From assembly GCA_020851735.1 (NCBI GenBank), contig JADZCD010000020.1:1-64000 (forward strand): DNA of 64,000 bases, written 5' to 3'. The notes under the pieces are model-generated. The model was not told where the DNA came from and made no database searches. It saw only the letters and a list, made by a program, of their open reading frames with translations. Positions within the stretch are counted from its first letter, which is position 1. Every line of letters starts with the position of its first letter. The DNA comes from Phycisphaeraceae bacterium. GTDB lineage: Bacteria > Planctomycetota > Phycisphaerae > Phycisphaerales > Phycisphaeraceae. Made by a program: the position numbers and the translations under genes. This document shows, one piece after another, positions 24,128-51,135 of this stretch.

Positions 24128-24129
24128 CG

Positions 24130-27912: not shown

Positions 27913-28004
27913 TAGTCCTGCTTTTACCGGGCGGTTTGGACTTAGGTGGTAATTCCGCTACCATCCCCGCCTTCACCCTATATTTGAGGCAGGAGTTGAT
28001 TCCC

Positions 28005-28622: not shown

Positions 28623-28681
28623 GGCCAGGCGAGAGCGCAGGCTGCGGAATTTCCGGGGATTCGCCGCGGCGGACGGCGCGC

Positions 28682-31018: not shown

Positions 31019-31100
31019 ATTTAAATTATAACCGTCAGTCTTTTCGCCCGTAAGCTGCAATCAAACTTGAGAGTCTCAGTTTGCTCTCTCCAGCACATGG

Positions 31101-31169
31101 TTAATCCGGCGGGAGGGTTTCAAAGCGGTAGCCGACTTCGCGCAGGGTGAGCAGGTAGCGGGGGCGATC
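31101..31169 (-). pseudogene. Remnant: C-terminus of an OmpR/PhoB-type response regulator
   Basis: Minus-strand translation reads DRPRYLLTLREVGYRFETLP and ends two residues later at TAA (31101-31103). PRYLLTVRGVGYRF is the hallmark end of the winged-helix DNA-binding domain of OmpR-family regulators. Nothing upstream in this frame continues the domain: the sequence instead runs into the end of the URO-D-like gene (stop at 31177). It is therefore a 20-codon leftover of a deleted regulator gene. Confidence 0.6.
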
Positions 31170-31176
31170 CAACACG

Positions 31177-32292
31177 CTAGCGGTGCGCAGCGCACCATTT
31201 TTGGATCATTTTGACGCGGGTGATGGCTTCTTCGCCGATGCCTTCGGGGACTTCGTCGGAAACGCCCAGGACCAGGCGCGGGTGGAAGAGCTGGACGACC
31301 TTTTCAACGCAGGCCATCAGGTCGTCGCGCGAATATTGGTCCATGAAAAGCACGGCGGGGATGCCGTCGAGCACGATTTTGTCGCCGATGTGGGCCTTGA
31401 TTTCCTCCAGCGTGACGTCGCCCTGGGGCACGGGGGTGAGGGCTTCAATGCCGTCGAAGGCCATGTCCTTAAGGTAGCGCAGAAGAATCTTGCAGAAGCC
31501 GTCGATGTGGACGTGGGTGTAAAGGCCGGCCTTGCGGAGTTGCCCGGAGCGCTTGGCGTACCAGGGCAGGAGGTATTTTTCGATGTATTCCGGGCCTAAA
31601 AGTTGATCGTGGAGGTTTTCGCCGAAGTTGACGATTTTGACCAGGTCCGTGTGCTGGGGAATCTGTTCGTAGAGGGCGTCGTAGGAATCGTCGATCAGGC
31701 GCATGGCGTCCTCGACTTCGTCGGGGTAATCAGCCAGGGCGTAGATGAGGCACTCGATGGGCATCCACCATTGGGCCAAGTGCTGGTAGGGGCTTTTGGG
31801 GACCCAGAATTGCGGGCTGCCGCGCGGGCCGATGAATTGATCGCCGATTTCAAAACGCTGGCGATCGAACCCGTGGGTGACGTGCTGGTACATCCAGCGC
31901 AGGCATTTGAGATCGTCGCGCGTCTGCACGGGATAGCGGACGGTGCGCCAGACCTGGTCCTCGTTTTTTAAGTGTTCGCGGACGAGCTGGCCATGGGGCG
32001 TGTGGTAGTAGGTCCAGGAACGGTCGCCTTCCTCGCGCTTGGTGATTTTGACCTCGGGGCCGAAGAATTGGCGGACGGGGTCGGGCTGATCGGTGTAGTA
32101 GTGCAGGTAGCGCATGGAGACGCCCAGATCGTCCATGAAGCCGCGCACATCGGTGCGCTCATAAGCGGCGGGCAACTGGTTCATGACCTTGTGCCAGGCA
32201 AACCACGGCTCAACGCGCGGCTGAAAGAACACCGGACCGCCGGCCGGATGGGTGCGGTCAAACACCGCCAGGTTCATCTGTCGATGGTTCAT
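31177..32292 (-). CDS. Uroporphyrinogen decarboxylase-like (URO-D superfamily) protein
   Basis: A 371-residue TIM-barrel protein of the URO-D/corrinoid methyltransferase superfamily, as seen from the late barrel strands ENLHDQLLGPEYIEKYLLPWY, GLYTHVHIDGFCKILLRYLKDMAFDGIEALTPVPQGDVTLEEIK and IVLDGIPAVLF. True HemE motifs (FAGAPFTLA, RQAGR) are absent, so haem synthesis is unlikely; many such proteins accompany glycan-degradation or methyl-transfer genes. I use MNHRQMNLAVF at 32292, which has AAAGG 7 bases upstream. Its 3' end abuts a response regulator remnant, which marks a past rearrangement. Confidence 0.75.
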   Translation of the reverse strand: MNHRQMNLAVFDRTHPAGGPVFFQPRVEPWFAWHKVMNQLPAAYERTDVRGFMDDLGVSMRYLHYYTDQPDPVRQFFGPEVKITKREEGDRSWTYYHTPHGQLVREHLKNEDQVWRTVRYPVQTRDDLKCLRWMYQHVTHGFDRQRFEIGDQFIGPRGSPQFWVPKSPYQHLAQWWMPIECLIYALADYPDEVEDAMRLIDDSYDALYEQIPQHTDLVKIVNFGENLHDQLLGPEYIEKYLLPWYAKRSGQLRKAGLYTHVHIDGFCKILLRYLKDMAFDGIEALTPVPQGDVTLEEIKAHIGDKIVLDGIPAVLFMDQYSRDDLMACVEKVVQLFHPRLVLGVSDEVPEGIGEEAITRVKMIQKWCAAHR

Positions 32293-32310
32293 CGAAAAGC
32301 CTTTGTCCAA

Positions 32311-32536
32311 AAAAGAAACGATGAGTCGGAAGGAAAATGATGCTCGGCTGATCTTGAATATGCAAATGGGTATAGGAAGTTAAGAACAAGAACAAGATCA
32401 ATGGCTGGGGCGCGAAGAAGGATGGATCGACGGGAGCGATTGGCGCAATAGATGCAGTGCCCAGGGAAGGAATCCCTGGGCTTTAGCCCCGGAAGTTCCC
32501 CGAGAATGCAACGTTTCCTGGCGAAGTCGGCGGCGG
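32311..32536. repeat. Intergenic region with a type A hairpin
   Basis: A type A hairpin at 32460-32480 (CCCAGGGA...TCCCTGGG, then CTTTAG) is followed by CCCCGGAAG (type E unit) at 32486. The right part carries the end of the beta-mannosidase gene's downstream region; the left part should hold the promoter of the URO-D-like gene. Confidence 0.75.
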
Positions 32537-34876
32537 TCAGGGGCGATGGACGGAGCCGATGTCCGCCGGGATTTCCAGCTTGCTCAGCCAGCGGCGGTAG
32601 TCGGTCAGCTTAAAGGGGCGCGGGCCGGCGAGGTAGTGATTAAGGTGCGAACCCTGGGCGTCGGTCCAGCGCAACAGATACATGGCCGGCAGGGGGGAGG
32701 GGGGAATGTGCCCGGCGGTGGATTTGTCGTTGGCGGGGACGTGATAGTCGGTTTCCAGCAGGGTGCGCCCGGTGTCGACGTCTTGGATGGAGAGGTGGCC
32801 GGCGGCGGGCGCGAAGGTGTCGTTGACGACGACGATTTCGTGGCGATTATCGCTCGGCTCGCAGCAGATGGCGCAAATGTCCGTCTGGACGCGCTGGATG
32901 TAGGTGTAGGCCAGTTTTTTGCGGTTGTAATAGTCGACGATGGCGTCGGAAAAGATCGGCCAGCCGTCGCGCAGGTTCCACCAGAGGATGCCGGTGCGGC
33001 GCCACTTGGCGTGGCGGAACCATTCGATGAAAAACTTTTTGGCCTCGGCCTGGCTGATCTGCGAGGCCAGGACGTAGTCGTCGAGGTTGTCGGGAATGGA
33101 GGCAAAGAGCACGGCGATCTGTTTGCCCATGAGGTTGACGCGGTAGTTCCACCCGGTGAAGTTGCGGTGCGGGCGGGTGCAGTGCGTCAGCCACTGATCG
33201 TTGTCCTGCCAAGGCCAGACGAATTGGGGATCGAGCATTTCCTCGATGGATCTGCGGTCCGGGCAGCCGTGGTAGCCGATCTCGCTGGCAAAGTGGGCCA
33301 GGGAACCGGTGTAGAACGGGCCTTTGAAATCATCGCGCGGGCCCCAGAGGTGGCGCTCGGGCTGATTCTGCACGTCGGCGCCCATGCGGACCATTTCCGG
33401 CGAGCTGTAGGGCGAACTGGGCAGGTATTCGCGGTAAGGATCGAGCCGGCGCACCACGGCCGGAAGGGTGCCGCGGGAGTGGCGGTCGGTGTTGGGGTCT
33501 ACGCCGGGGAGCATGCGGTGATAGAAGATGTCGATTTCGTTGTCACCGGCCCAGAGGGCCAGGCTGGGGTGATTGCGCAGTTTGCGGACGATGGCCTCGG
33601 CTTCGGCGGTCAGGCGGGCGGCGAATTCGTCGGTCTGCGGGTAGATGGCGCAGGCGAGGGCGAAATCCTGCCAGATCATGAGGCCGGCTTGGTCGCAGAG
33701 ATCGAAAAAGTCGTGGTCTTCGTACACGCTGCCGCCCCAGCAGCGGATCATGTTGCAGTTGAGGTCCGCAGCCATGGCGATGGTGGTTTGCAGGTGCTGG
33801 CTGTCGCGGCTGTGCAGGGCGTCGAGCGGGACCCAGTTGGTGCCCTTGCAGAAAACCTTCCGCCCGTTGACACGGAACACAAACTCGCCGGGCTGGGCGG
33901 CGGTGGTGACAGGGGTGCGCTGGAGCTTGATGGTGCGAACGCCCACGCGGCAGCGGTGTGTGGCAAGCGTGCGGCCATCGGCGTCGAGCAATTCGACCAC
34001 GGCGTCGTACAGGGCGGGTTCGCCGTAGCCGCGCGGCCACCAGAGATCGACTTGGGTTAAGTCGAGGGTGTAGCGTCCGTGGGTGTCGATGACGGGCAAC
34101 TCGGTGCGATGAACTTCGCGCCCGCGGCGATGCAGAGTCGCCCGCACCTTCAGGGCGTCGATGTCCAGGCGGTCGGTCACAAAGTCCCAGTGGACAAAAA
34201 CGCGGGCGGAGCGCTGGTCGGGGTCGGCGGCGATGGTCGACCAGTAAATAGCGCGGAAGCGCGTGGGGTTAAGAACTTCCAGGCACACCGGGCGCCACAA
34301 GCCGGCGCTGACCAAGCGCGGGACGATGTCCCACCCGTACATGTGGGGAGCTTTGCGGATGGAAATGGACTCGTAATGCATCCGGTCGGCCCACTCGATG
34401 GGCTCGTTTTCGTAATCGCGCCCGGCGAGGATGGGCGAGTCGATGCGGACCACCAGATCGTTGGGGCTGTCGGAGCGCAGGTGGTCGGTGACGTCCAGGC
34501 GGTGAGGGATGAGCATGTTGTCGGTGCGGGCGATTTCCCGGCCGTTGAGGAAGATAACCGCCAGGCAATCAAGGCCCTCAAACACCAGTTCCACGCGTTG
34601 GCCGACGGCCAGCGTGGGGGAATCAAAGCTGCGCCGATACCACCAGCGGTGCGTCTCAAACGGGCGCAGAAGATGAATGTTGTTTCCCTTGGTTACGTCG
34701 GGCAGCAGGCCGGCCGCCATCAGGTCCAGTTCGACGTTGCCGGGCACGGCGGCGGGAATAGCGGGCAGATGGGCGGCGTCCAGTTGCGCGGGCGTCGCGG
34801 GGGCGGAGGGGGGGGATTGATCCTGCGGGCCAAAGGACAGTTGCCAGGAGCCGTTAAGGGAGATTTTTTGGGTCAT
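32537..34876 (-). CDS. Beta-mannosidase-like glycoside hydrolase, family GH2
   Basis: A 779-residue GH2 enzyme. Its N-terminal jelly roll begins SLNGSWQLSF and contains NNIHLLRPFETHRWWYRRSF, then an Ig-like domain and the TIM barrel with GTNWVPLDAL, WGGSVYEDHDFFDLCDQAGLMIWQDF and the acid/base region NHPSLALWAGDNEID. The family usually has GNNE; here it is GDNE. The nucleophile is probably in FASEIGYHG. This layout fits intracellular beta-mannosidases, which take terminal mannose from mannan fragments. Together with the GH130 phosphorylase at 42007-42981 it suggests mannan oligosaccharide use. Confidence 0.88.
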   Translation of the reverse strand: MTQKISLNGSWQLSFGPQDQSPPSAPATPAQLDAAHLPAIPAAVPGNVELDLMAAGLLPDVTKGNNIHLLRPFETHRWWYRRSFDSPTLAVGQRVELVFEGLDCLAVIFLNGREIARTDNMLIPHRLDVTDHLRSDSPNDLVVRIDSPILAGRDYENEPIEWADRMHYESISIRKAPHMYGWDIVPRLVSAGLWRPVCLEVLNPTRFRAIYWSTIAADPDQRSARVFVHWDFVTDRLDIDALKVRATLHRRGREVHRTELPVIDTHGRYTLDLTQVDLWWPRGYGEPALYDAVVELLDADGRTLATHRCRVGVRTIKLQRTPVTTAAQPGEFVFRVNGRKVFCKGTNWVPLDALHSRDSQHLQTTIAMAADLNCNMIRCWGGSVYEDHDFFDLCDQAGLMIWQDFALACAIYPQTDEFAARLTAEAEAIVRKLRNHPSLALWAGDNEIDIFYHRMLPGVDPNTDRHSRGTLPAVVRRLDPYREYLPSSPYSSPEMVRMGADVQNQPERHLWGPRDDFKGPFYTGSLAHFASEIGYHGCPDRRSIEEMLDPQFVWPWQDNDQWLTHCTRPHRNFTGWNYRVNLMGKQIAVLFASIPDNLDDYVLASQISQAEAKKFFIEWFRHAKWRRTGILWWNLRDGWPIFSDAIVDYYNRKKLAYTYIQRVQTDICAICCEPSDNRHEIVVVNDTFAPAAGHLSIQDVDTGRTLLETDYHVPANDKSTAGHIPPSPLPAMYLLRWTDAQGSHLNHYLAGPRPFKLTDYRRWLSKLEIPADIGSVHRP

Positions 34877-35123
34877 GGTGGTTCTGCCTGAATCGCGAGA
34901 TTGTACGTTAAGCGCGCGACAAACATGAATCCCCGGCGCGGACGGTGGAAACAGAGGAAGGCGAGGGCAGAGGCCCAGGGATTTCTTCCCTGGGCTTTAG
35001 AGCAATTTTCGCAAGGCACGGACAGCTGCGCGGCAGGGTGGAATGCGGGGGCGATTCATTTTTGCCGCGACGGTATGATGCTGGGGCTGTTGGATGTATT
35101 TTTTTCCGACGGATTGCCTCGGC
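34877..35123. repeat. Intergenic region with the last type A hairpin
   Basis: A type A hairpin at 34974-34994 (CCCAGGGA...TCCCTGGG, then CTTTAG). It is the rightmost A copy in the window; none occurs from here to 64000. The rest lies between divergent genes and should hold both promoters. Confidence 0.75.
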
Positions 35124-36014
35124 ATGCCCACCAACAATCCCATGACTTATTGCGACCTGCACATTCACTCAAGCGCCTCGGACGGCACGGTGCCGCCGGA
35201 GGAATTAGCGCCCCTGGCGGTGAAGGCGGGGCTGGCGGCCATCGCGCTGACGGACCACGACACCACCGTGGGCGTGCCGGCGGCGCAGGCGGCTTGCCAG
35301 AAAGTCAAGCTGAATTTCGTGCCGGGCATTGAATTGTCCGTGCGGGCGCCGGCGCTTGATGAGAACGACCCGGGCTCGCGCTTAGGCACGCTGCACATCC
35401 TGGGCTACTTTATCCAGCACGACCATCCGGATCTGCTGACGCTCCAGCAGCAGGTTCAGCAGGCCCGCCATGAACGCAATCCGCGCATGATTGACCGGCT
35501 GCGCGAGCTGGGCGTGGCCATCGAATACGAGGACGTGCTGGAGCTGGCGCGCAGCGAAGGAGCCTTGATCGTCGGTCGTCCGCACATCGCCCAGGTGCTG
35601 GTGCAGAAGGGGTACGTCAAATCGCTGCACGAAGCCTTCCGCCGGTACATCGGGCAGGGCGCGCCGGCCTATATCCGCAAGGATCTGCTGCCGCCGGAGG
35701 AAGCCATCCGGGCCATTCACGCCGCCAAGGGTTTGGCGATCCTAGCGCACCCCTTGCAGCTTCGCCTGCCGGATTTCACCAGCCTGCACCGGGAGATTCA
35801 GAATCTTAAGGCTGCGGGCCTGGACGGCATTGAGGCCCGCCACACCGATCACACGCCGGCCCACGTCCGCCAGTTCGAGCAGATGGCTAAGCAGCTGAAT
35901 CTTCTGACCACGGGCGGATCGGACTTCCACGGCGCGCGCAAGGCGATCCCGCTGGGCAGCCAGAAGGTGCCTTACGAATATTACGAGCGGCTGCGCCAGG
36001 CGGCGGGGCAGTAA
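35124..36014 (+). CDS. PHP domain phosphoesterase (RNase AM/YciV-like)
   Basis: A 296-residue PHP-family protein. YCDLHIHSSASDGTVPPEEL (residues 9-28), ALTDHDTTVGVPAA, PGIELSV, AILAHPLQLRL and the final GGSDFHG give the full set of metal-binding His and Asp residues of the three-metal PHP site. The family acts on nucleotide or nucleic-acid phosphates; E. coli YciV trims 5' ends of rRNA. The start may be the ATG at 35124 or the one at 35142. It is a single gene, upstream of the nuoH leader. Confidence 0.88.
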   Translation: MPTNNPMTYCDLHIHSSASDGTVPPEELAPLAVKAGLAAIALTDHDTTVGVPAAQAACQKVKLNFVPGIELSVRAPALDENDPGSRLGTLHILGYFIQHDHPDLLTLQQQVQQARHERNPRMIDRLRELGVAIEYEDVLELARSEGALIVGRPHIAQVLVQKGYVKSLHEAFRRYIGQGAPAYIRKDLLPPEEAIRAIHAAKGLAILAHPLQLRLPDFTSLHREIQNLKAAGLDGIEARHTDHTPAHVRQFEQMAKQLNLLTTGGSDFHGARKAIPLGSQKVPYEYYERLRQAAGQ

Positions 36015-36301
36015 CCCCCCCCACTTCCCTTTCGGCCGATGCGGAAAGAACAGGCGATTGAAGTCGGACAAGGGTTCTTAGCGCCCGTCGCCACAGGGGG
36101 TTTGGATCGTTACAATTTTGCCCAGATTAAGAGCCCTCAACAAAATGAACCGCCAAGTCGCCAAGAAAACCACCAAGATGAATGTTTGGATCAAAAAAAA
36201 CGTTGATTCATGACTTTTCGGAGCTTGGCGTCATGGCGGTTAATCGTATTTTGTTAGCGGTTCTAAGTTCCAAGCCGGGCAGCCCTCACCGAGGTCTAGA
36301 C
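36015..36301. repeat. Leader of nuoH containing inverted-repeat element K, copy 2
   Basis: Element K (36144-36278) has left arm AACCGCCAAGTCGCCAAG and right arm CTTGGCGTCATGGCGGTT, 15 of 18 positions complementary, and a right end TAATCGTATTTTGTTAGCGG resembling that of the copy at 10318. It ends about 25 bases before the nuoH start, so it either brings or disturbs regulation of nuoH. No gene is seen. Confidence 0.75.
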
Positions 36302-37726
36302 ATGATCCAATATTGGGCCCAGGAAAACATCTGGCTGATCATCGCCATCAAGGCGACGCTGGTGCTGGCGGCGTTTATTCCCCTGATCAGCGTGGTGGTG
36401 ATGTTCAGCATCTGGTGGGAGCGGAAAGTGGCGGGGCACATCCAATCGCGGGTGGGTCCGATGCACGTGGGCGGGTGGCACGGCTGGGCGCAGTCGCTCG
36501 CGGACGGGGTGAAGTTGATTTTGAAGGAAGACTTAATGCCGGCGGGGGCGGACGCGTTCATGTTCCGGCTGGCGCCGTATCTGGCGTTTGCGCCGGTGTT
36601 CGCAGCCCTGTTGGCGCTGCCGTTTAGCCCGCAATGGGTGTTTGAGCCGGGGCTGAACATCGGGGTGCTGTATCTGTTGGCGTTTCTGGCGGTGGAGGTG
36701 ATGGGCACGATCCTGGCGGGGTGGGGGTCAAACTCCAAGTGGGCGGTTTACGGGGCAATGCGCGAGGCCTGCCAGATGGTGTCGTATGAAATTCCACTGG
36801 GGCTGGCGATTCTGGCGGGGGTCATCACGGCGGGCACGCTGCATTTGGTGGAATTGGGGTATCTGCAGGCGGGCGGGCTGCACGAGTGGTTTGTGTTCCA
36901 CAATCCGTTTATTTTCTTAGGATTTTTCGTCTATTACATCGCGTCCTTGGCGTCCAACAAGCGGGCGCCGTTTGACCTGCCGGAATCCGAATCGGAACTG
37001 GTGGCGGGGTTCCACACGGAGTATTCGGGCATCCGCTGGTCGTTTTTCTTTTTCGCCGAGTACGGGGCGATGTTCGTGGTCGGGTGTATTCAGGCGGCGT
37101 TGTTTTTAGGGGCGTGGAACAGTCCGCTGGGGGCGCTGGATCCGGTGTATCGTTGGGTGGGATACGAGCCGCTGCGGGCGGCGGAGGCTTATTTCTCAGG
37201 GCAGTTGGCGCAGAGCTCCGCGGCGGGCGGGTGGTCGGGCACGGCGGCGGCGCTGGGCGTGAGCGTGGGGGGCTTGCTGGCGGTGAATCTGTGGGGCGCG
37301 TTCTGGTTCATGCTCAAGGCGATGACGATTATTTTCATTCAGATCTGGATCCGCTGGACGTTGCCGCGCATCCGCATTGACCAGGTGCTTTACGCCTGCG
37401 TGAAGGTGCTGTTGCCGGCGAGTCTGATCGTGTTGTGCGGCACGGCGGGGTGGGTGTGGCTGGTGCCGCAGCCCGCGGCGGTGGCACTGGCGAGCGGGCC
37501 GGCGGTGGCGCGATTAGGGCACCTGTTCAGCCCGACGCCGATGGTCCAACTTGTCACGCAGATTACACTGACTATCCTAGGCTTGCTTTTGTGCCTGGGT
37601 GTACTTGGCGTCGTTCTAAGAGCGTTTCTGCTCCGCGACCGCCAACCCCGCAAGAGTATTTTCCCCGGCGTGATGCCCGTCGGAAGGGAAATCGCTTTTA
37701 CGCGCACCGACCAACCATCCCCCTAG
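36302..37726 (+). CDS. nuoH: NADH-quinone oxidoreductase subunit H
   Basis: A 474-residue membrane subunit that joins the hydrophilic and membrane arms of complex I. WERKVAGHIQSRVGPMHVG, GWAQSLADGVKLILKED, MREACQMVSYEIPLGLAIL and NKRAPFDLPESESELVAGFHTEYSG are canonical. About eight membrane segments form the core. It is longer than E. coli NuoH (325 residues): there is an insert after FLGAWNSP (about residues 275-335) and a C-terminal part beyond the core ending RKSIFPGVMPVGREI. The ATG at 36302 starts the conserved domain; the preceding open frame is repeat element K. No other nuo gene lies in the window. Confidence 0.93.
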   Translation: MIQYWAQENIWLIIAIKATLVLAAFIPLISVVVMFSIWWERKVAGHIQSRVGPMHVGGWHGWAQSLADGVKLILKEDLMPAGADAFMFRLAPYLAFAPVFAALLALPFSPQWVFEPGLNIGVLYLLAFLAVEVMGTILAGWGSNSKWAVYGAMREACQMVSYEIPLGLAILAGVITAGTLHLVELGYLQAGGLHEWFVFHNPFIFLGFFVYYIASLASNKRAPFDLPESESELVAGFHTEYSGIRWSFFFFAEYGAMFVVGCIQAALFLGAWNSPLGALDPVYRWVGYEPLRAAEAYFSGQLAQSSAAGGWSGTAAALGVSVGGLLAVNLWGAFWFMLKAMTIIFIQIWIRWTLPRIRIDQVLYACVKVLLPASLIVLCGTAGWVWLVPQPAAVALASGPAVARLGHLFSPTPMVQLVTQITLTILGLLLCLGVLGVVLRAFLLRDRQPRKSIFPGVMPVGREIAFTRTDQPSP

Positions 37727-37782
37727 GCGACGGCTGCCTTTGAGGGTGGAGTCAAGCCCAAACGGCATCGAAGGATAAAACC

Positions 37783-38607
37783 ATGAAACTATCTTTCACC
37801 ACCCTCGGCTGCCCGGCCTGGAAACCAGAGGAAATTCCCCAACAGGTCAAGACCTTCGGATTTGACGGCGTGGAGTTGCGCGTGCATCCGGAGGGGCTGC
37901 ACCTCTCGCCCGAAGCCACCGACGACCAGGCCCGGCAACTGGCGGAGTCGTATCGCCAGGGGGGCTTGCCGGTGATCAGCCTGATGGGGTATTCGAGCTT
38001 TGCCCATCTGGAAGCGGGGCCGATGGAGGACAACCGCAAGCTGTTGGCTAAATTAATTCACTTAGCGGGCGTCATGAAGGTGCCGTACATCCGCACCTTC
38101 GCTGGCATGGTGCCCAAAGGGGCCACGCATCAGAGCGTCATTCAAAGGGCCGCGGAGGTTCTTAAACCCCTGGCGGAGCTGGCGGGCAAGAACGGCGTGA
38201 AGATCGGGCTGGAGACGCACGACGACTGGACGAATCCGCAGCACACGCTGGCGCTGGCCAAGGCGGTGAACTCGCCGAACTTCGGCATTGTCTACGACAT
38301 CTTAAATGTGTGTGACGCCACGCAAGGCGACTGGAAGACGGCGTATCAGTTGTTTAAGGATTTGATCCTGTATTGCCACGTCAAGGACAATTTCCCCTTG
38401 CCGGGCCCGGAAAAGAAGCGTTCGTATGTGGCGGTGGGCGCGGGGGATCTGCCCTTGAAGGAAATCCTGGCGCAATTCAAGAAGGACGGCTACGACGGCA
38501 TTTTCAGCTTCGAGTGGGAAAAACGCTGGCACGAGGAACTCGAAGCGCCCGAGCGGGTATTCCCGCAATTCACGCACAAGATGCGTTCGGTCTGGAACAG
38601 CCTGTAG
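37783..38607 (+). CDS. Sugar phosphate isomerase/epimerase (xylose isomerase-like TIM barrel)
   Basis: A 274-residue AP endonuclease 2/xylose isomerase-like barrel. MKLSFTTLGCPAWKPEEIPQ, FDGVELRV, GVKIGLETHDDW, NFGIVYDILNV, LYCHVKDNF and GYDGIFSFEWEKRW carry the Glu, Asp and His residues that bind the metal. Members interconvert or degrade ketoses and inositols; the substrate is unknown. It lies 12 bases upstream of the MarC gene and probably shares a transcript. A second barrel of this type lies at 40826-41716. Confidence 0.85.
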   Translation: MKLSFTTLGCPAWKPEEIPQQVKTFGFDGVELRVHPEGLHLSPEATDDQARQLAESYRQGGLPVISLMGYSSFAHLEAGPMEDNRKLLAKLIHLAGVMKVPYIRTFAGMVPKGATHQSVIQRAAEVLKPLAELAGKNGVKIGLETHDDWTNPQHTLALAKAVNSPNFGIVYDILNVCDATQGDWKTAYQLFKDLILYCHVKDNFPLPGPEKKRSYVAVGAGDLPLKEILAQFKKDGYDGIFSFEWEKRWHEELEAPERVFPQFTHKMRSVWNSL

Positions 38608-38619
38608 AGGTAAGCCAAT

Positions 38620-39264
38620 TTGGATTGGGCGTTTGCCATCCAGTGCATCGTCGGCATCATCGCCATCACCGACCCGTTGGGCGTGGTGCCGATTTTTCTG
38701 TCGGTCGTGGACCGCCAGGATCAGGCCCAGATGCGCCGGGTGGCCCGGCACACGACGCTGACGGTCTGCTGCACGCTGATACTCTTTGCCTTTCTGGGCC
38801 AGGGGATTCTGCGTTTCTTCGGCGTCACCCTGCCGGCCTTCCGCGTGGGCGGGGGGATATTGCTGTCCATCATGGCTCTGCCGATGCTGCAGGGCCAGCT
38901 TAGTCCCGCCAAACAGAATCGCGACGAGGCGGAGGAAATCGCCGCCCGCAGTTCGGTGGCGATCGTGCCCCTGGGCATTCCCCTGCTGGCCGGGCCGGGC
39001 GCCATCAGCCTGGTGATGCTGCTTTCCCAGCAAGCCCAGGACACCGGACGTCTGCTGGGCTTAGGCGCGGGCATCGGGATCACGACGTTGGCCACGTTCC
39101 TGGCCTTGCGCGCGGCGGTGAGCATCCAGAAATATTTTGGGCGCACGGAAATCGCCATCACCACCCGCGTGATGGGGCTGATCATGATCGCGGTGGGCGT
39201 GCAATTCGCCGCGGATGGTTTAAAGGAATTGTTCCCCCTGCTGGCCCAGACGCATTTTCCCTAG
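38620..39264 (+). CDS. MarC family integral membrane protein
   Basis: A 214-residue membrane protein with six hydrophobic segments. FAIQCIVGIIAITDPLGVVPIFLSV and SIMALPMLQGQ, with IVPLGIPLLAGPGAI, are the MarC signature. Its role is unresolved; the family was once wrongly linked to multidrug resistance. It starts with TTG at 38620, preceded by AGAGGT, and its stop overlaps that of the FkbM gene on the other strand by 3 bases. Confidence 0.85.
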   Translation: MDWAFAIQCIVGIIAITDPLGVVPIFLSVVDRQDQAQMRRVARHTTLTVCCTLILFAFLGQGILRFFGVTLPAFRVGGGILLSIMALPMLQGQLSPAKQNRDEAEEIAARSSVAIVPLGIPLLAGPGAISLVMLLSQQAQDTGRLLGLGAGIGITTLATFLALRAAVSIQKYFGRTEIAITTRVMGLIMIAVGVQFAADGLKELFPLLAQTHFP

Positions 39265-40019
39265 CCGGCCGCTTTGGACTGCCGATACACGAGCTTTTCG
39301 CCCTTGGCTTCCCGGACAAAGCCGTGATCGGCCATGACCTTTTCCACCACCTGCCTGATGGCCGGTCCATGGGTTTCCACCACCATCACCCGCAGCTTGT
39401 TCAACCAGGCAAGATCGCCTTCGGTCAGCAGCTGCTGTTCAGCGCCTTCCACGTCCAGCTTCAAGAGATCGAGCGCGTCGGCTCCCGATTCATTGAGCAG
39501 CTCGCTGATGGTCGCACCGCGCATGCCCTGGCCCACCTGGCCATCCCTGGTCGGGTCCAGCTCGCGCACACGGAACGCCCAACTGTCGGCAGTGGGGTTA
39601 TCAATTGCCAACAGGGCCGGGCGCGGCCAGAGGGCCCCTTCCACGAGCTGGATATTGGAGTAGGAGACAATCTGCCGACGGATTAAGGCGCAATTCTTCG
39701 GATCGGGCTCGACGGCGATGATCCGGGCGTTGGGGTACTTGTTGGCCAGGAGAATGCTGGCATAGCCCACGTTGGCGCCGCCGTCGATGATCAGGCGCGG
39801 GGGGCGGGATAATTCCACGTCGCAGTCCCGGTGTCCAAAGACGTGCCAGAAAGCGTACATGTCGCTGTGGCGCGGCCGGCAGAGGATCGGCTGGCGAATC
39901 CCCGGCAGGCGCAACGAGATTTCCTGGACGCCCAGCAAGCGACAAAAGACATATTTAAGGGCCTGCCAGAGGCCCAGCAGGTCGACAAACCATCGGAATC
40001 TGGACAGGAAAAAGAACAT
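39261..40019 (-). CDS. FkbM family methyltransferase
   Basis: A 252-residue SAM-dependent methyltransferase. LIIDGGANVGYASILLA (residues about 77-93) is motif I, IIAVEPDPKNCALIRRQI the SAM-ribose strand and LLKLDVEGAEQQLLTEGD a hallmark of FkbM proteins, which O-methylate sugars or polyketides. Its first 40 residues are hydrophobic-aromatic and may bind a glycan carrier. The stop codon overlaps that of the MarC gene. A role in methylating a cell-surface glycan is inferred. Confidence 0.87.
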   Translation of the reverse strand: MFFFLSRFRWFVDLLGLWQALKYVFCRLLGVQEISLRLPGIRQPILCRPRHSDMYAFWHVFGHRDCDVELSRPPRLIIDGGANVGYASILLANKYPNARIIAVEPDPKNCALIRRQIVSYSNIQLVEGALWPRPALLAIDNPTADSWAFRVRELDPTRDGQVGQGMRGATISELLNESGADALDLLKLDVEGAEQQLLTEGDLAWLNKLRVMVVETHGPAIRQVVEKVMADHGFVREAKGEKLVYRQSKAAG

Positions 40020-40116
40020 AGGTCCTCACCACCCCCCCACCCCTCCTGCGCCCCTGCGCTGCCGGTTTTCATTCCTGGGCCCTCGGCCATCCCCGGACGC
40101 GCTCGGCCGGTCGCGT

Positions 40117-40680
40117 TTAGGCGCCGTGGCCTGTTTCGTCGGTCACGTGGGCAACCGAGCTGGCCCCGGGTCCGCCCATGGCCCACTCCTTGTCCGGATC
40201 AGGAATGACCAACTGGCGGACGCCGCCGGTCAGGTTGGCCTGCAGGCGTTCGTATTCCTGGCGCACTTCCGCGTCGCCCGGCAGCCACTCGTGCAGGTAG
40301 ACGACCTCACGCACCTTGGCCTGCAAGAGTTCCTTGGTGCAGCCGAAGCAGGGACGGAGCGTTGAGTAGATGGTGCTGCCTTCCACGGCGATGCCGAAGC
40401 GGGCCGCGGACAAGAGGGCGTTCTGCTCGGCATGCACGCAGATGCACAGGTCGTAGCCGCTGCCGGAGGGGTATTGCTCGCGGTGGGCGCAGCGATGGCA
40501 CCCGCCATCCAAGCAATTGGGCATGCCGGCCGGGGTGCCGTTGTAGCCAGTGGAGATGATGCGGTCGTTAAGCACGATGATCGCGCCCACGCGCCGGCCC
40601 AGGCAATTGGCCCGCTGGCGGACCGCCAAGGCGATGCCCATGTAGTATTCTTCCCGACTCGGCCGCGTGTGTTTGGTCAT
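40117..40680 (-). CDS. Deoxycytidylate deaminase (ComEB-like)
   Basis: A 187-residue zinc deaminase converting dCMP to dUMP. VHAEQNALL (His83, Glu85) and RPCFGCTKELLQ (Cys111, Cys114) are the catalytic zinc site; NCLDGGCHRCAHREQYPSG is the second Cys/His cluster of dCMP deaminases. The ATG at 40680 begins the conserved protein; the longer frame from 40836 crosses type E repeats (ACTTCCGGGG units). It provides dUMP for thymidylate synthesis. Confidence 0.92.
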   Translation of the reverse strand: MTKHTRPSREEYYMGIALAVRQRANCLGRRVGAIIVLNDRIISTGYNGTPAGMPNCLDGGCHRCAHREQYPSGSGYDLCICVHAEQNALLSAARFGIAVEGSTIYSTLRPCFGCTKELLQAKVREVVYLHEWLPGDAEVRQEYERLQANLTGGVRQLVIPDPDKEWAMGGPGASSVAHVTDETGHGA

Positions 40681-40735
40681 AGTCTGGCCTCCCTGGCAAT
40701 GATGTCCCGTCACTTTACCAGCGATCCTCCGGGGG

Positions 40736-40770
40736 CGACTTCCGGGGACAACTTCCGGGGGCGATCGCCC
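40736..40770 (-). repeat. Type E units in reverse orientation
   Basis: GACTTCCGGGG and AACTTCCGGGGGCGATCGCC, that is CCCCGGAAG units read on the minus strand, upstream of the dCMP deaminase gene. The units at 9588, 14143 and 29334 are in the opposite orientation. Confidence 0.65.
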
Positions 40771-40825
40771 GCGAAACTGCCGCCGCGTTGACTTTCCCCA
40801 ATCCCTAACCCCTAATCTCCAATCC

Positions 40826-41716
40826 CTAATTCCCAACCCCCAACGTCTTAAGCTGTTCTCTTAGGTATTTAAGGCCCAGGTCCACGGCCAGGCCCGGCTC
40901 TTCCATGCCTTCGAATTCCAGGGACAGGTAGCCGTCGTAGCCGGCCTTCTTAAGCAGCTTAAGCTCGGCGGGGATGTCGATCACGCCGTGCCCGGCAATC
41001 GCGCCGCGCAGGGCGATGGCGGTCGGCGTGGCGAACCAGCCGGTGGGGGGCATCTGCTTCTTGGGCTTAACGTGGAAGTCCTTCACGTGGGCCATGATGG
41101 CGTATTTGGCCAGGCGTTTGACGGCGTCGACCGGCTCTTCGTTGACGCACAAAAAGTTGCCCATGTCGATGGTCAACCCGTAATTGGGATGCCCCACCGC
41201 CTGGATCAGCTTTTCCACGCGCTCGGAAGCCTGCATGTAGAAGCCGTGATTTTCCAGGGAAGTTTTCAGGCCCTTGCCGGCAGCGTATTCCGTCACTTCA
41301 CGGATGGCCGGGGCCATGTACTTAAGCACCTGGGGGAAGGTCTTGGCGTCCACGGGCGGTTTGTTCTTCCCGTTGGTCGGACCCCAAGTCACGTCGTGGC
41401 GCATGGTCTTGGCGCCTAAGGCCACGGCGATGTCGACGTCCTGTTTTAGGCGGGCTACTTCCTGCTTCTGCGTCTGCGGGGGGCAGAGAAACTCGCCGCC
41501 CACGCAGTAGCCGGCCACTTCCATGCCCAGCTTGGCGACGTAGGCCCGGACTTCCTGGGCCCGGGCGATGGGGTTGTCCTTGGCCCGTTCGTCGAGCCCG
41601 CAGAACTCGGCAGCCTTTACGTCGTGCTGGGCCATCCAATCCAGCGTCTGCTCGAGCGTCTTATTATTCTCGCGCATCCACCGGCTTAAGCTGTAGGTGC
41701 TCACGGCCAGAATCAT
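40826..41716 (-). CDS. Sugar phosphate isomerase/epimerase (xylose isomerase-like TIM barrel)
   Basis: A 296-residue barrel from MILAVSTYSLSRWM (ATG at 41716). Metal-binding motifs are visible in KGLKTSLENHGFYMQ, NYGLTIDMGNFLCV, MAHVKDFHVKP and GYDGYLSLEFEGMEEP. It is of the same superfamily as 37783-38607 but clearly a separate subfamily. A cytoplasmic role in sugar catabolism is likely; the substrate is unknown. The neighbours (GH130 phosphorylase, beta-mannosidase) make hexose metabolism plausible. Confidence 0.83.
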   Translation of the reverse strand: MILAVSTYSLSRWMRENNKTLEQTLDWMAQHDVKAAEFCGLDERAKDNPIARAQEVRAYVAKLGMEVAGYCVGGEFLCPPQTQKQEVARLKQDVDIAVALGAKTMRHDVTWGPTNGKNKPPVDAKTFPQVLKYMAPAIREVTEYAAGKGLKTSLENHGFYMQASERVEKLIQAVGHPNYGLTIDMGNFLCVNEEPVDAVKRLAKYAIMAHVKDFHVKPKKQMPPTGWFATPTAIALRGAIAGHGVIDIPAELKLLKKAGYDGYLSLEFEGMEEPGLAVDLGLKYLREQLKTLGVGN

Positions 41717-42006
41717 CGCCCATCTCCTTATCCCCCACTTCCCGGTCCGCGCTGCCAACCACGACTTGATCTCCACGCGGACCTGCCTAACAGACTATCC
41801 CAAATCTTCCCCGGTGCGAGTCGGCCCTTCTTGGGCGGCGCGGGAAAACACTTAAGCGATCATCTTCATGTTAATTGCCGACCTGACAGAAAACATCCCG
41901 ATCTCCGACGTGTTATCCTGTTTTAAATGCCTGGGGCTGGTTCCCACACTTGTTGATTCGCCAGTTGCCGACAACCTCGTGCCTCCCTTCCGGGGGCGGG
42001 ATCGAC

Positions 42007-42981
42007 ATGATGCCGCAGCCAAACATCACCCGTTGTCCGAACAATCCCATCCTCACCGCCAAAGAGGTGCCGTATCCGTCCACGCTGGTGTTCAATGCCG
42101 GCGTGACCCGCTATCGCGGGCAGTATGTGATGGTCTTTCGCAATGACTACGGCAACTATCGCGGCACGTATCACTTTGACGGCACGAACCTGGGGCTGGC
42201 CACCTCCGGCGACGGCATCCACTGGCGGGTGGCGCCGCAACCCTGCTGGGAATGGCAGGATGAGGAAGTCCAGCGCGTTTACGATCCGCGGCTGACGGTT
42301 CTGGACGATCGCTGCTACCTGAGTTTCGCCGTCGACACCCGCCACGGCATCCGCGCGGGGCTGGCGATTACCGAGGATTTCAAGCATTTTGAGGTGCTTT
42401 CCCTCTCGGCGCCGGACAATCGCAACACGGTGCTGTTTCCCCAGAAAATCAACGGGCAATTCGTCCGCTTGGAACGCCCGTTTCCGGTGTATTCCTTGGG
42501 CGCGGGCGAACATTTTGACATTTGGCTGTCCACCTCACCGGACGGCCGACACTGGGGCAACACGCGCCTGGTGCTGCCGCATGAGCGCGTGCCGTTTGCC
42601 AACGCCAAGATAGGTCCGGGCGCTCCGCCCCTGCGCACCAAGCGTGGCTGGCTGACCCTTTTCCACGCCGTGGACATCAACCCCAATCGCCCGCTGAACG
42701 GCTGGGAGCCTTCGCCCTGGACCAAGCGCTACACCATCGGGCTGATGCTGCTGGACCTTAACGAGCCCTGGCGGGTCATCGGCCTGTGTCCGCAGCCTTT
42801 GATGGTGCCCGAAGCCCCCTACGAACTGGACGGATTCCGCGGCGGCGTGCTTTTTCCCGGCGGATTCCTTGACGAACCCGACGGCACGGTAAAGATCTAT
42901 TACGGGGCGGCCGACACGGTTCAGGCTCTGGCGACGGCGGACCTTCATGAGCTGCTGAATCTTTGCCAGCCGGTGGGGTAA
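42007..42981 (+). CDS. Family GH130 glycosidase (beta-mannoside phosphorylase type)
   Basis: A 324-residue five-bladed propeller of family GH130. NPILTAKEVPYPSTLVFNAG (residues about 9-28), VYDPRLTVLDDRCYLSFAVD and AKIGPGAPPLRTKRGWLTLFHAVD are the family blocks holding the catalytic Asp and phosphate-binding Arg/His; GGVLFPGGFL..VKIYYGAADT closes it. These enzymes phosphorolyse or hydrolyse beta-mannosides. Two ATG codons (42007, 42010) are possible; an ORF start at 41950 adds unconserved residues. With the GH2 beta-mannosidase this makes mannan-fragment use likely. Confidence 0.85.
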   Translation: MMPQPNITRCPNNPILTAKEVPYPSTLVFNAGVTRYRGQYVMVFRNDYGNYRGTYHFDGTNLGLATSGDGIHWRVAPQPCWEWQDEEVQRVYDPRLTVLDDRCYLSFAVDTRHGIRAGLAITEDFKHFEVLSLSAPDNRNTVLFPQKINGQFVRLERPFPVYSLGAGEHFDIWLSTSPDGRHWGNTRLVLPHERVPFANAKIGPGAPPLRTKRGWLTLFHAVDINPNRPLNGWEPSPWTKRYTIGLMLLDLNEPWRVIGLCPQPLMVPEAPYELDGFRGGVLFPGGFLDEPDGTVKIYYGAADTVQALATADLHELLNLCQPVG

Positions 42982-43276
42982 AGCGCCAAATTACGTCACT
43001 TAACTTAATGGGATATGCCCTACATCCCTCGTGAAGAGAGCGTATCGCGACGTCCAAAGCTTGCGGTGGGTTGCTTTGAAATGTTCATTTCAAGCAGGTG
43101 CTGATTATTCCCCACCACGCTACCTAGAACCAATACGACTCTTTCCCTTTTTTGAACGTAGTGCCGGACCTATGTCACTGGCCGCATCGACATCGTCGGA
43201 TCTTCCACCGTAATTTGGCGGCCCAAAGGCGCTGGACCGGTTTCCTCAGCGGCGCCCTTTTAACCGGAGGATTGCC
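42982..43276. other. Intergenic region with a short palindrome
   Basis: A perfect inverted repeat TTGAAATG-ttc-ATTTCAA lies near 43076-43093. It has the size of an operator or short hairpin. No gene is recognised. GGAGG near 43265-43270 is the ribosome binding site of the next gene. Confidence 0.5.
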
Positions 43277-43948
43277 ATGTCCGACACGCTGAGCGACAGT
43301 TCGATAGCGGTCACCCTGACTCGACTGTGTCTGCCTAAACGTTACGAAGACGTCGTGGACGGCGATTTTGAGCAGCCGTATCTGGTCTGCATGGCCATGG
43401 ACCAGGCTTCCCGGCGCAACCTATGCCTCTATTACAGCTTTCTGCCGTTTCCTAAGCTGGCCGGCGGCGGCGCGGTGCGTCTGTTGGACCAAGGGTATCC
43501 CCTATACGGCCCATCCACCCCGGGCGATTTCGTGCTGCTGACCCTGATGGTCATGGAAAGCGAACGGAATCTGCAGACCCTCAATGCCCAATTGGCGGAC
43601 CTGATCGGCAGCCAATCCGCAGCCCTGGGGCTGCCCTCAGCCCTGGCGGATTCTGAGTACCGGCCCTCGGACCTGTTGACCATGCTCAAGGAACTGACGG
43701 ATTTCCTGACCGGCACGCTCACGGCCACAAGCGACAACGAGCTCTTTCGCCTGCAGATCTCGTTTTTCCGCGATGATCCGATCCCGTATCAGTTAAACCG
43801 CGAATACGACCTGGGCAACGACTATGTGGACCTGACGCTGCGGATATGCCCCATGGCCAACAACATCACGCTCTTCCCCAGGCTGCGCACGATCAACCTG
43901 GACAAAAAGAACTTCATGCCGGGGAATTCAACGCTTTCCCCAAGCTGA
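43277..43948 (+). CDS. Hypothetical protein
   Basis: A 223-residue acidic soluble protein that I do not recognise. It begins with MSDTLSDSSIAVTLTRLCLPKRYEDVV, has an internal VLLTLMVMESERNLQTLNAQLADLIG helical stretch (about residues 92-117), and ends with DYVDLTLRICPMANNITLFPRLRTINLDKKNF. There is no signal peptide or membrane segment. A strong CCGGAGG precedes the ATG by 6 bases, so it is likely expressed. It lies convergent to the SGNH protein gene with only 16 bases between the stops. Confidence 0.55.
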   Translation: MSDTLSDSSIAVTLTRLCLPKRYEDVVDGDFEQPYLVCMAMDQASRRNLCLYYSFLPFPKLAGGGAVRLLDQGYPLYGPSTPGDFVLLTLMVMESERNLQTLNAQLADLIGSQSAALGLPSALADSEYRPSDLLTMLKELTDFLTGTLTATSDNELFRLQISFFRDDPIPYQLNREYDLGNDYVDLTLRICPMANNITLFPRLRTINLDKKNFMPGNSTLSPS

Positions 43949-43964
43949 GCGCGGGAACCTGGTT

Positions 43965-45350
43965 TTAGGCGCTTAAACCGCCGTGCCGACGACGGTGGAA
44001 AATAGCTGCGAACCCCAGAGCCAACAGCCCGACGGCGCCCGGCTCGGGGATCATGGCCCCGCCGGCGCCGGCCAGCAGACGAGTCTTGAACGGGTCGATG
44101 TCGCTTAAGGTGATCAGCCCGTCCTCATTGACGTCGCCGTAATGCGCGGTCAATCCTTGGCCCGCCAGAGCCTTGCGGAATCCGTCCACATCCGAAAGCG
44201 TCATCAGCCCATCTTCGTTAAAGTCCCCCAGCATCCCTGCCTGCAGGTTGACGCCCTCTTCCATAAAGACCTTCTGAAACATCAGCTGGCCTATGTACTC
44301 GCCGCCGGTAGAAGAAAAGTGGACTTTGTCCGCCTGTAAATAGCCCTGGGCCTGGTAAAACGCCGCGTCGCCGGCCGTGTGATAAAGGTCGACAAAACCA
44401 AGCCCCCGGGCTAAGGCCACGTCTTCCATCGCCCCGACCATGTTGGGCAGCCAGGTGTTGCCTTTCTTGGTGCCCACCAGCACGATCTCGGCGGTCGGAG
44501 CCGTGGCCTGCAGGCGATCCACCAGCAGGTTCAGGCGGGCGGCGTAGGTGGTGCGGTTGTAAGCCTGGTCGTTCTGCCCGATCCAGACGAAAATCAGGTC
44601 CGGGTCGACGTTCTGCAACTGGGCGTCGAACGTCCAATCACGCTGGATGTAGTTGTTGACCCCCCACCCGCCGTCGGCCACGCGATGCACCCGCGCGCCG
44701 GGCGTCTGGTTGATGTTGTTCATGCCCAGAATGGTGGCCGGCTTGTCATCCAGAGTCTTGATCCAGAGCCTGCTTTGCCCGGTGGGGAACTGGTACTGCC
44801 AGGTTCCTAGGCTCTCCTGGGTGTTGTTGGTGTCGATGATCGTTAGGACATTGTGGGCTGCGTCGGCCACTTCGATGCGCCCGTACCCGGGCCCGGTCAT
44901 GTATTGGAGCTCGACTGTGGCGCCCGCGCCGGCCAGGGAATCAAACGTAGCGGATTGATTGGCCGTCGTCGCGCCGTTCCACAAGCCGTCCAGACTATGA
45001 TGCGGCGAGGGATCGGTGTTGACCTTAGGCCCGATCCAGCCTGAGCTATAAACAAAATTACCCCCCGACCACTGGCTGAAACCCTGGTACCCCCTGCCCG
45101 CGTTTCCGTAGAGCGCCTGCATCTCCCGGCGGAACACCGGTACCCAGCTGGTGTTTTCCAGCGTCAAGCTGTCGCCGATGGCCACGATATTGGCTTGCCC
45201 GCCGGAGGCCAGGACAGCTTTGGTGTCCGCCAAGGCCTGATGAAGGTTCAATTGCACGGCCGCCCCGGCTTGCCCGGTCAGCCCAGACGATAGCGCCCCC
45301 ACTGCCCACACTACCGCCTTAAATACGACCCTGAGGCGGTTAGACCGCAT
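43965..45350 (-). CDS. Secreted SGNH-type hydrolase with dockerin-like repeats and PEP-CTERM tail
   Basis: A 461-residue exported protein. A signal peptide (about residues 1-31, ending GQAGA) is followed by a carbohydrate-esterase-like SGNH domain: VAIGDSL (57-63), VWIGQNDQA and the late DKVHFSSTG hold the catalytic Ser, Asn/Asp and His. The C-terminal 88 residues contain two calcium-loop repeats GDFNEDGLMTLSDVD and GDVNEDGLITLSDID, of the type I dockerin kind, then IPEPGAVGLLALGFAAIFHRRRH, a PEP-CTERM sorting signal. It is probably delivered across the inner membrane and held on or released from the surface, deacetylating a polysaccharide. Confidence 0.85.
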   Translation of the reverse strand: MRSNRLRVVFKAVVWAVGALSSGLTGQAGAAVQLNLHQALADTKAVLASGGQANIVAIGDSLTLENTSWVPVFRREMQALYGNAGRGYQGFSQWSGGNFVYSSGWIGPKVNTDPSPHHSLDGLWNGATTANQSATFDSLAGAGATVELQYMTGPGYGRIEVADAAHNVLTIIDTNNTQESLGTWQYQFPTGQSRLWIKTLDDKPATILGMNNINQTPGARVHRVADGGWGVNNYIQRDWTFDAQLQNVDPDLIFVWIGQNDQAYNRTTYAARLNLLVDRLQATAPTAEIVLVGTKKGNTWLPNMVGAMEDVALARGLGFVDLYHTAGDAAFYQAQGYLQADKVHFSSTGGEYIGQLMFQKVFMEEGVNLQAGMLGDFNEDGLMTLSDVDGFRKALAGQGLTAHYGDVNEDGLITLSDIDPFKTRLLAGAGGAMIPEPGAVGLLALGFAAIFHRRRHGGLSA

Positions 45351-45468
45351 CCGCTCTTCTCCCTTCCCGGCAAGGCCTCCTTCTTTTTTACCACTCCAAC
45401 GCCCTGGATCAAGCTTTTTCCGTGTTTTTCAGGCATCTTGGCCTGACTTGCCAGGGCGAAGCGTGGCC

Positions 45469-45810
45469 TTAGATGGCCTTGCCGCCCCGTTCTTCGGTGC
45501 GGATGCGGATGCATTCCTCTAAGTGAGTTATGAATATCTTGCCGTCCCCCACTTCGCCGCCGGCGTGCTTGGCAGCCTTGAGGATCGCCTTGACGGTGAT
45601 CTCCACGAATTCATCATTGCAGGCCACGTCCAGCCTTACCTTCGGGTGCAGGTTGGGCACCACTTTTTGCCCGCGGTACACCTCCTCGCCTTCCTGCCGG
45701 CCGTGGCCGGTGCAGCGGCTGACGGTGATACGGGTGATTTCCGCCTTGATCAGCGCATCGCGCACGTCGTCGAGCTTGTCGGGTTGAATGATCGCGGTAA
45801 TGAGTTTCAT
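45469..45810 (-). CDS. glnB: Nitrogen regulatory protein P-II
   Basis: A 113-residue PII signal protein, sensing 2-oxoglutarate and ATP/ADP. DKLDDVRDALIKAEITRITVSRCTGHGRQ (residues 11-39), T-loop EEVYRGQKVVPNLHPK (42-57), B-loop VGDGKIF and C-loop EERGGKAI are clear. At the site of the uridylylated Tyr51 of E. coli GlnB stands Val50 (YRGQKV, not YRGAEY), so control by GlnD-type uridylylation is not expected; the preceding Tyr45 is kept. AGGAG is 5 bases before the ATG. It follows amtB at a distance of 105 bases, and the two are probably one unit. Confidence 0.92.
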   Translation of the reverse strand: MKLITAIIQPDKLDDVRDALIKAEITRITVSRCTGHGRQEGEEVYRGQKVVPNLHPKVRLDVACNDEFVEITVKAILKAAKHAGGEVGDGKIFITHLEECIRIRTEERGGKAI

Positions 45811-45915
45811 GGCTCTCCTGGTCCATTGCTGATTTTTTGCGTCGGCTCGTGTCCGCTGGGCGTTTTTGGCAGCCTTCGCCCAGCCTTCCTCTGCTTCTTG
45901 GCCTTGCGGTCGGGA

Positions 45916-48385: not shown

Positions 48386-48447
48386 TTCCGGGTCCAGAAA
48401 TAAGGGCTAGTCATCAGGAGAAAACCGCAGTCCAGGGCCGGGGCTTC

Positions 48448-51098: not shown

Positions 51099-51135
51099 CA
51101 GGTGGGGATAGGGCAATAGGGATTGGGGACCAGCG

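Follow-up and report, generated by a model that had tools for sequence, protein, structure and literature searches.

Alternating GC-skew domains bordered by a dispersed repeat suggest many replication starts in a Phycisphaeraceae chromosome

Bacterial chromosomes follow the textbook rule of one origin each, and the natural exceptions to this rule are, to our knowledge, mainly proposed or engineered. Archaeal chromosomes with multiple origins have a handful of them. In human skew N-domains, upward skew jumps correspond to origins and the linear fall between them to a gradient of fork polarity (PMC3320577). The domains described here share the sharp upward border jumps and the gradual fall to the opposite sign, but the human ones are megabase-sized and eukaryotic, whereas these are about 100 kb long, bacterial, more strongly skewed and bordered by a common repeat, with origins and fork polarity read from the skew. 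The skew switches of bacterial oriC and terminus (SkewDB, PMC8941118; dif) are likewise sharp at the start with a G-rich leading strand, but here there are many switches rather than one pair; DnaA-box clusters and dnaA do not accompany them, and no dif-like site was found at the one described below. Several starts per prokaryotic genome occur in archaea (e.g., Haloarcula hispanica, PMC3936714), whereas the present genome would have dozens, on a repeat with no known gene. Multiple starts per chromosome have also been claimed in bacteria (PMC4403523; Achromatium, PMC5587575) on the basis of extra oriC-like sequences or engineered strains, in contrast to the genome-wide sawtooth with a repeat found here. 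Y1 transposases of the IS200/REP type act on the lagging-strand template (PMC6006769), and the short hairpins of our genome resemble REP and IS200-IS605 elements in their conserved flank and strict orientation, but are used in this study to mark strand polarity independently of the skew.

The DNA analyzed, hereafter the window, comprises the first 64 kb of contig C20 (88,007 bp) of a Phycisphaeraceae draft genome (69 unordered contigs, 3.56 Mb), in which skew was read over 2.2 Mb. Taken in 2-kb steps, the GC skew of the window was +0.12 to +0.28 across 1-26 kb, about +0.09 to +0.20 across 28-38 kb and -0.01 to -0.11 across 40-64 kb, and it dropped further in the remainder of the contig, to -0.33 at its end (88 kb). 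The cumulative skew reached its maximum at 39,231, where the skew crosses zero (39.2 kb), and the best two-segment changepoint lay at 37,519. When 1-kb blocks were permuted 2000 times, the observed contrast was never reached, which confirms the switch from G-rich to C-rich composition that the initial annotation had placed near 36-42 kb. The form of the switch differs from a step: the skew declines gradually, starting at about 26 kb and continuing past 66 kb, with the drop from above +0.1 to below -0.1 extending over 36.8-68.4 kb. The claim that the skew sign does not follow gene direction was borne out at the 4-fold sites of C20, where the genes of both strands agreed in top-strand skew, both in the G-rich part (+0.51 for + genes, +0.58 for - genes) and in the C-rich part (-0.43 and -0.28, respectively). 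A MITE at 36.13-36.27 kb, first suspected at the switch, had no link to orientation or skew.

Across the 2.2 Mb read, the skew sign alternated repeatedly in a sawtooth. Both signs were present in 20 of the 34 contigs of at least 40 kb, and the stretches read held at least 8 downward transitions. The switch in the window is thus local and does not represent the replication terminus of the chromosome, as had been suggested; what stood of that suggestion is the replication-like character of the switch, which we read as a place where forks would meet. The dif site proposed as a check was not found in the window, even when up to 3 mismatches were allowed, and half-site matches were at chance level, the consensus used being derived from other phyla. 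Transitions were narrow when upward (median 3.2 kb, n=6) and wide when downward (median 12.3 kb, n=8; Mann-Whitney p=0.0018), and steps of at least 0.3 over 8 kb were upward in 5 cases and downward in none, thus combining the sharp upward jump and gradual fall of skew N-domains. Changepoints of the six sharp upward jumps, two of them on contig C62, were located to about 60-600 bp (Table 1). All six show the sharp C-to-G change typical of a DnaA-dependent bacterial oriC, with the sign of a bacterial origin, i.e., a G-rich leading strand. The + strand carried a 46-52% share of the coding sequence. As in skew N-domains, transcription does not explain the skew: an effect of gene direction was ruled out by the 4-fold sites, at which the top-strand skew was +0.42 (+ genes) and +0.43 (- genes) in G-rich zones, and -0.42 and -0.45, respectively, in C-rich zones.

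Table 1. Features of the window and assembled upward skew jumps of the genome (positions in nucleotides of the window unless a contig is given).
Feature	Location	Strand	Remarks
Domain flank rich in G, with a leading-like top strand	1..38000	.	skew about +0.2 dropping to +0.1
Origin-associated element, 3' two thirds (model positions 232-599), contig breaks inside	1..368	+	nhmmer E=1.8e-128; proposed left-hand replication start
Hairpin repeat CCCACGGATT...AATCCGTGGG, one of several hairpins adjoining element copies	376..407	+	
Polar hairpin repeat GTGCCACACAG, G-rich-zone orientation	5684..5694	-	
Polar REP-like repeat GCGGCGATC-TGC-GATCGCCCGCTAAAC (CCGCTAAAC core), G-rich-zone orientation	12656..12664	+	
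Polar REP-like repeat (CCGCTAAAC core)	13008..13016	+	
Polar REP-like repeat (CCGCTAAAC core)	15694..15702	+	
Polar hairpin repeat GTGCCACACAG	15782..15792	-	
Polar hairpin repeat GTGCCACACAG	17942..17952	-	
Polar REP-like repeat (CCGCTAAAC core)	24697..24705	+	
Downward skew slope (zero at 39,231), a zone in which forks are proposed to meet (termination)	26000..64000	.	skew profile; goes on outside the window
Polar REP-like repeat (CCGCTAAAC core)	26430..26438	+	
Assembled upward jumps	C10:12.1, C62:61.3, C62:143.1, C3:131.6, C47:8.8, C18:56.4 kb		

The upward jumps are marked by a repeat of about 600 bp with 24-32 copies genome-wide, which keep invariant blocks. In C10, C62 and C3 the distance between this repeat and the changepoint is about 30-350 bp at most. 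The window opens with a copy, 93% identical to that of C10, and contig C20 is therefore taken as one domain. Outward from the element copies, the skew was positive in all flanks considered (28/28 at 5-10 kb, 25/25 at 10-15 kb and 22/22 at 15-20 kb), with a plateau of G excess over 5-30 kb and zero about 55 kb out, compared to 17 of 33 flanks for a control repeat family. Contigs frequently end within the element, and the outward rule also holds for those that merely end at a copy. At three of the six assembled jumps (C47, C18 and C62:143 kb) a full copy is missing; one of these three has a decayed 3' end only, the score of which was matched by 1 of 300 genomic controls. Rfam covariance models gave no family for the element, only a chance-level RsmY match (E=0.88), so a known RNA family was rejected. 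Only 4 of the 81 predicted pairs had two-sided changes and the covariation term was unfavourable, so that the RNA structure of the element is no more than putative. The element was absent from 50 other genomes of the family and from three further genomes. The idea of linear mini-replicons capped by the element as a telomere was dismissed, as C10, C62, C3 and C57 continue through their copies and C62 has two jumps, and so was that of integrated plasmids, most genes adjoining the copies being ordinary chromosomal ones (pantoate ligase, adenylosuccinate lyase, YmdB).

The polar hairpins change with the skew. Orientations of the GTGCCACACAG hairpin were 1:37 in G-rich zones and 42:2 in C-rich zones, agreeing with the zone in 79 of 82 cases (p = 9e-20), while the 9-mer GGTGCCACA, which overlaps it, should be nearly unbiased as judged from dinucleotide composition. 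Both GTGCCACACAG and CCGCTAAAC repeats reverse their orientation across jumps, at 58-64 kb in C62 and at 130.8-132.05 kb in C3. As expected of REP/IS200-type repeats, the genome also holds Y1 transposases of this kind (6 matches). The hairpin-rich part whose end had been said to coincide with the switch is supported insofar as the two REP-like families lie, within C20, only at 5.7-26.4 kb and in a single orientation.

We read the window, with a probability of roughly two in three, as most of one replication domain in a bacterial chromosome copied from many bidirectional starts, and we infer from the sequence that fork direction causes the sawtooth. Forks would leave both ways at or beside the element (window 1-368, the 24-32 copies, and sites where it has been lost or has decayed), would travel outward about 40-55 kb and would meet the oncoming fork of the neighbouring start at a point that varies; the window would hold one such local meeting zone, with its centre near 39 kb. 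Replication-linked, strand-asymmetric mutation or selection may favour G over C on the leading strand, so that sharp upward jumps would lie at the starts and slopes between them. The element could itself be the start site, with hairpins or a structured RNA as possible means, or could be mobile and settle at starts. More tentatively, and at somewhat less than even odds, the main chromosome might be copied from some 25-35 bidirectional starts at a spacing of about 100 kb, each set by the dispersed, structured non-coding repeat and not by DnaA boxes, with comparable local domains in other Phycisphaeraceae.

Several observations were counted against multiple starts. DnaA-box clusters were not found at the jumps, with one TTWTNCACA in six 3-kb stretches around them, and dnaA (C22:21.7 kb) is not at a jump but has a + zone on one side (1-20 kb) and a - zone on the other (58-78 kb). 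Highly expressed genes (RpoB/C, EF-Tu, GroEL, AtpD, S11) showed no co-orientation with the inferred forks. In the closed relative G005 the skew forms two ordinary replichores that start at dnaA and switch near 2.09 Mb, and no more than about a quarter to a third of the sites run against this trend, as judged from motif positions, a coarse substitute for a skew profile. Besides, the skew is lower close to the element (+0.08 in the first 2.5 kb) than at greater distance, and A/T skew scarcely tracks the zones, a behaviour that differs from simple deamination. Starts driven by R-loops through a missing RNase H were discarded since the genome encodes an RNase H domain.

It is unlikely that the element is a mobile, non-coding, structured one that inserts where replication, or forks that depend on recombination, would start anyway, which would leave the skew domains as fork domains. 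The jumps with a missing or decayed copy speak for it, as does the absence of the element from 50 family genomes even though local skew domains are seen in G004 and G005 as well. On the other hand, the element sits only tens to hundreds of bases away from the changepoint and has blocks that do not vary among copies, both of which look like selection for a site function. Rather unlikely, too, is a single-origin, strongly skewed chromosome scrambled by many inversions, e.g., between repeat copies, so that pieces of replichores alternate. Repeats are abundant, G005 has an overall two-replichore pattern with local exceptions, and such inversion traces are known in other bacteria (PMC8941118). Scrambling predicts upward and downward steps of equal sharpness and frequency, but the largest sharp steps are all upward and the widths unequal; inversion between copies would leave about half of the copies G-rich inward, but 0 of 28 flanks were so at 5-10 kb, and the skew values run continuously through zero and not as two classes.

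Another two-sided process centred on the element, for instance long resection or break-induced synthesis at recurrent double-strand breaks, is very improbable as the cause. The asymmetry does begin at a hairpin-rich repeat and extends over tens of kilobases, and the weak A/T skew speaks against plain replication-linked deamination, but the strand exposed by resection would probably yield the opposite sign by deamination, and the reach of about 50 kb with its plateau fits fork travel better than end processing. Hardly credible is an artefact of assembly or binning that joined contigs of different replicons or strands at repeats. Although the genome is a draft whose contigs often end inside the element, the outward rule holds at contig-end copies, where joins do not exist, the slope in the window is gradual across tens of kilobases, some jumps (C47, C18) have no long repeat, and local sign changes occur in G004 and G005 too. 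The initial annotation would have been refuted by a genome-wide skew in which the switch is local, with an inversion or a contig join as examples. The switch did prove local, but neither example would account for upward changes that are sharp, lie at the repeat and are accompanied by a reversal of the independent hairpin repeats.

Overall, GC skew is unsafe for locating the origin or terminus, or for estimating growth rate, in draft genomes of this group. Even under another cause, a silent-site skew of about 0.4 in 100-kb domains around a repeat demands explanation. If the reading of many bidirectional starts is true, this chromosome, from the Planctomycetota, a phylum with unusual cell biology, would be a natural multi-origin case with dozens of origin-like jumps, many tied to one repeat, and would make the single-origin constraint in bacteria testable.

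The window comprises bases 1–64,000 of contig C20 (88,007 bp), part of a genome of 69 contigs and 3.56 Mb that is 95% complete. The GC skew of C20 is about +0.2 over the first 26 kb (1–26 kb), crosses zero at 39.2 kb, lies at about −0.05 between 40 and 66 kb and reaches −0.2 to −0.33 at the contig end, a contrast matched by 0 of 2000 block permutations. The initial annotation had described a terminus-like switch from G-rich to C-rich at 36–42 kb; the permutations bear out its existence, while its form is rather that of a slope. NuoH is encoded at the switch; a search with this protein brought up relatives that for the most part are Phycisphaeraceae MAGs (phylum Planctomycetota). A dispersed inverted repeat (ACCGCCAAG...CTTGGCGGT) occupies window 36130–36270 and has at least 40 further matches in the genome, among which no orientation or skew preference was found. 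Because the longest NuoH ORF (36182) begins within this repeat, nuoH probably has its true start at the ATG near 36302. Adjoining the zero crossing is an ordinary minus-strand gene (40117–40836) for a deaminase of the ComEB/dCMP deaminase kind, under the family cut-off.

Strong skew was found in many contigs in a survey covering 2.2 of the 3.56 Mb. Both signs occur within 20 of the 34 contigs of at least 40 kb, whereas one origin and one terminus could yield two such contigs. Read end to end, the contigs display a sawtooth. Contig C62 has a skew near −0.25 as far as 50 kb, then rises abruptly to +0.25 at 61–64 kb, sinks to −0.2 at 120–140 kb, and jumps once more at 143 kb before a second fall. 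Upward jumps are about 3 kb wide at the resolution used, versus 6–45 kb for the falls (Mann-Whitney p=0.0018), and sharp steps (≥0.3 over 8 kb) are exclusively upward. The 2,589-bp contig C23 (stretch L032) is N throughout.

Genes are spread evenly over both strands. At 4-fold degenerate third positions, plus and minus genes have top-strand skews of +0.42 and +0.43 within G-rich zones and of −0.42 and −0.45 within C-rich ones; in neutral zones the value is near zero. The same sign in both gene directions rules out transcription as the cause; the acting process tells the two DNA strands apart, not sense from antisense. Intergenic DNA follows the same trend more weakly, and A/T skew is nearly unchanged between G-rich and C-rich zones. 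The RpoB/RpoC, EF-Tu, GroEL and S11 genes (contigs C5, C21, C29, C37 and C62) lie in weak-skew stretches (absolute value <0.1), without co-orientation with the inferred forks.

Comparison of jump-flanking sequences with one another revealed a common repeat at three jumps, adjoining the skew changepoint in each.

Copies of the dispersed element and neighbouring skew changepoints
Location	Position (bp)	Changepoint	Remark
C10	11,351-11,896	12,142	
C62	61,560-62,102	61,302	
C3	131,659-132,242	131,566	
Window	1-368		window starts inside copy

The element has sharp ends (CCGCGCGCACAAAACCGAACACTTTGCTCGC... to ...CCCGCGCGCC), and some of its blocks are identical across all copies. We count 24–32 copies genome-wide, a range because halves stand at contig ends, the assembly mostly breaking inside the element. 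A search of 50 other family genomes yielded no copy, two of them giving 25-base matches only; three further genomes had none either, and the element matched no Rfam family. It is predicted to fold extensively, but covariation is too sparse to establish an RNA. A full copy is missing from three jumps. At one of these, an upward jump in C62, a probable decayed 3' end of the element lies exactly at the jump (C62:143,062–143,102; 17063–17103 of stretch L130). In C10, an AT-rich block adjoining the element copy (7386–11214 of stretch L020) has genes for a SIR2-like protein and for a protein of 948 aa with no Pfam match, and might be a defence island.

Skew was also measured by distance on the strand reading away from each copy. 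Every flank has positive outward skew at 5–10 kb (28 of 28; two-sided sign test, 7e-9), at 10–15 kb (25 of 25) and at 15–20 kb (22 of 22; mean +0.18); the value declines to +0.03 at 50–60 kb and is below zero past 60 kb. Within 6 kb, 28 of 33 flanks are positive (p=7e-5); a dispersed repeat unrelated to the element gives 17 of 33. Assembly joins cannot cause this rule, since most flanks are contigs merely ending at a copy. Relative to the jump, the element is seen in either orientation, which would be compatible with a two-way start.

An independent marker of the zones comes from two short hairpin repeats, GTGCCACACAG... and GCGGCGATC-TGC-GATCGCCCGCTAAAC, each of them strictly oriented. The former has an orientation ratio of 1:37 within G-rich zones and of 42:2 within C-rich ones (p=9e-20), although composition predicts nearly no bias; core CCGCTAAAC of the latter stands at 91:4, opposite to its compositional tendency. 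In C62, 15 of 15 repeats before 58 kb share one direction, and the eight at 64–109 kb have the opposite one; the change in C3 lies between 130,775 and 132,052. Those of C20 are confined to 5.7–26.4 kb, all oriented as expected for a G-rich zone, in agreement with the hairpin-rich part noted in the initial annotation. Elements of this kind are characteristic of Y1-transposase (IS200/REP) systems, whose insertions go into the lagging-strand template (PMC6006769), and Y1 transposases have six matches in the genome. The repeats of this genome may move by such insertion.

We put at roughly two in three the probability that this genome is replicated bidirectionally from many starts, spaced about 100 kb, and that forks meet in the zones between. 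Forks would start both ways at the jumps. A G-rich leading strand, the sharpness of the starts, the breadth of the ends, the orientation of the repeats and the lack of dependence on genes together match this reading; the same argument from skew shape to replication starts was made for human N-domains (PMC3320577). The main rival, inversions within a single-origin genome, predicts symmetric steps and random outward skew, but jumps are sharp and upward, falls are gradual, and every flank at 5–10 kb is outward-positive. The main doubts on many starts are that no cluster of DnaA boxes was found at the jumps, that dnaA is not at a jump, that highly expressed genes lack fork co-orientation and that A/T skew is weak. 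If starts are indeed many, the element may either cause them or settle at them, a choice on which the three jumps without a full copy bear. Several origins have been proposed in bacteria (PMC4403523; Achromatium, PMC5587575); the open-licence literature yielded no such proposal with a sawtooth and repeat pattern.

Among Phycisphaeraceae relatives, G004 has a similar rise and fall of skew over 140 kb, and local swings in the closed genome G005 span +0.4 to −0.4 over tens of kilobases; local skew domains are therefore not unique to the present genome. The G005 swings at 1.00, 1.10 and 1.20 Mb (stretches L155–L157) are smooth, reaching +0.44 at most and −0.39 at least, within 12–20 kb, and much shorter than the domains described here. 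Skew is almost absent in G007. A divergent second DnaA-like paralogue accompanies canonical DnaA in 7 of 7 genomes searched (G000, the present genome, and G003, G004, G005, G007, G009 and G012), G007 with its lack of skew among them. In G005, dnaA is at base 25, and the G-rich motif TTGGGGTGG has an orientation ratio of 28:13 up to 2.09 Mb and of 9:28 beyond, as counted from motif positions. Apart from scattered exceptions, G005 thus consists of two ordinary replichores that begin close to dnaA, so that a single dominant start is clearly kept in at least one relative.
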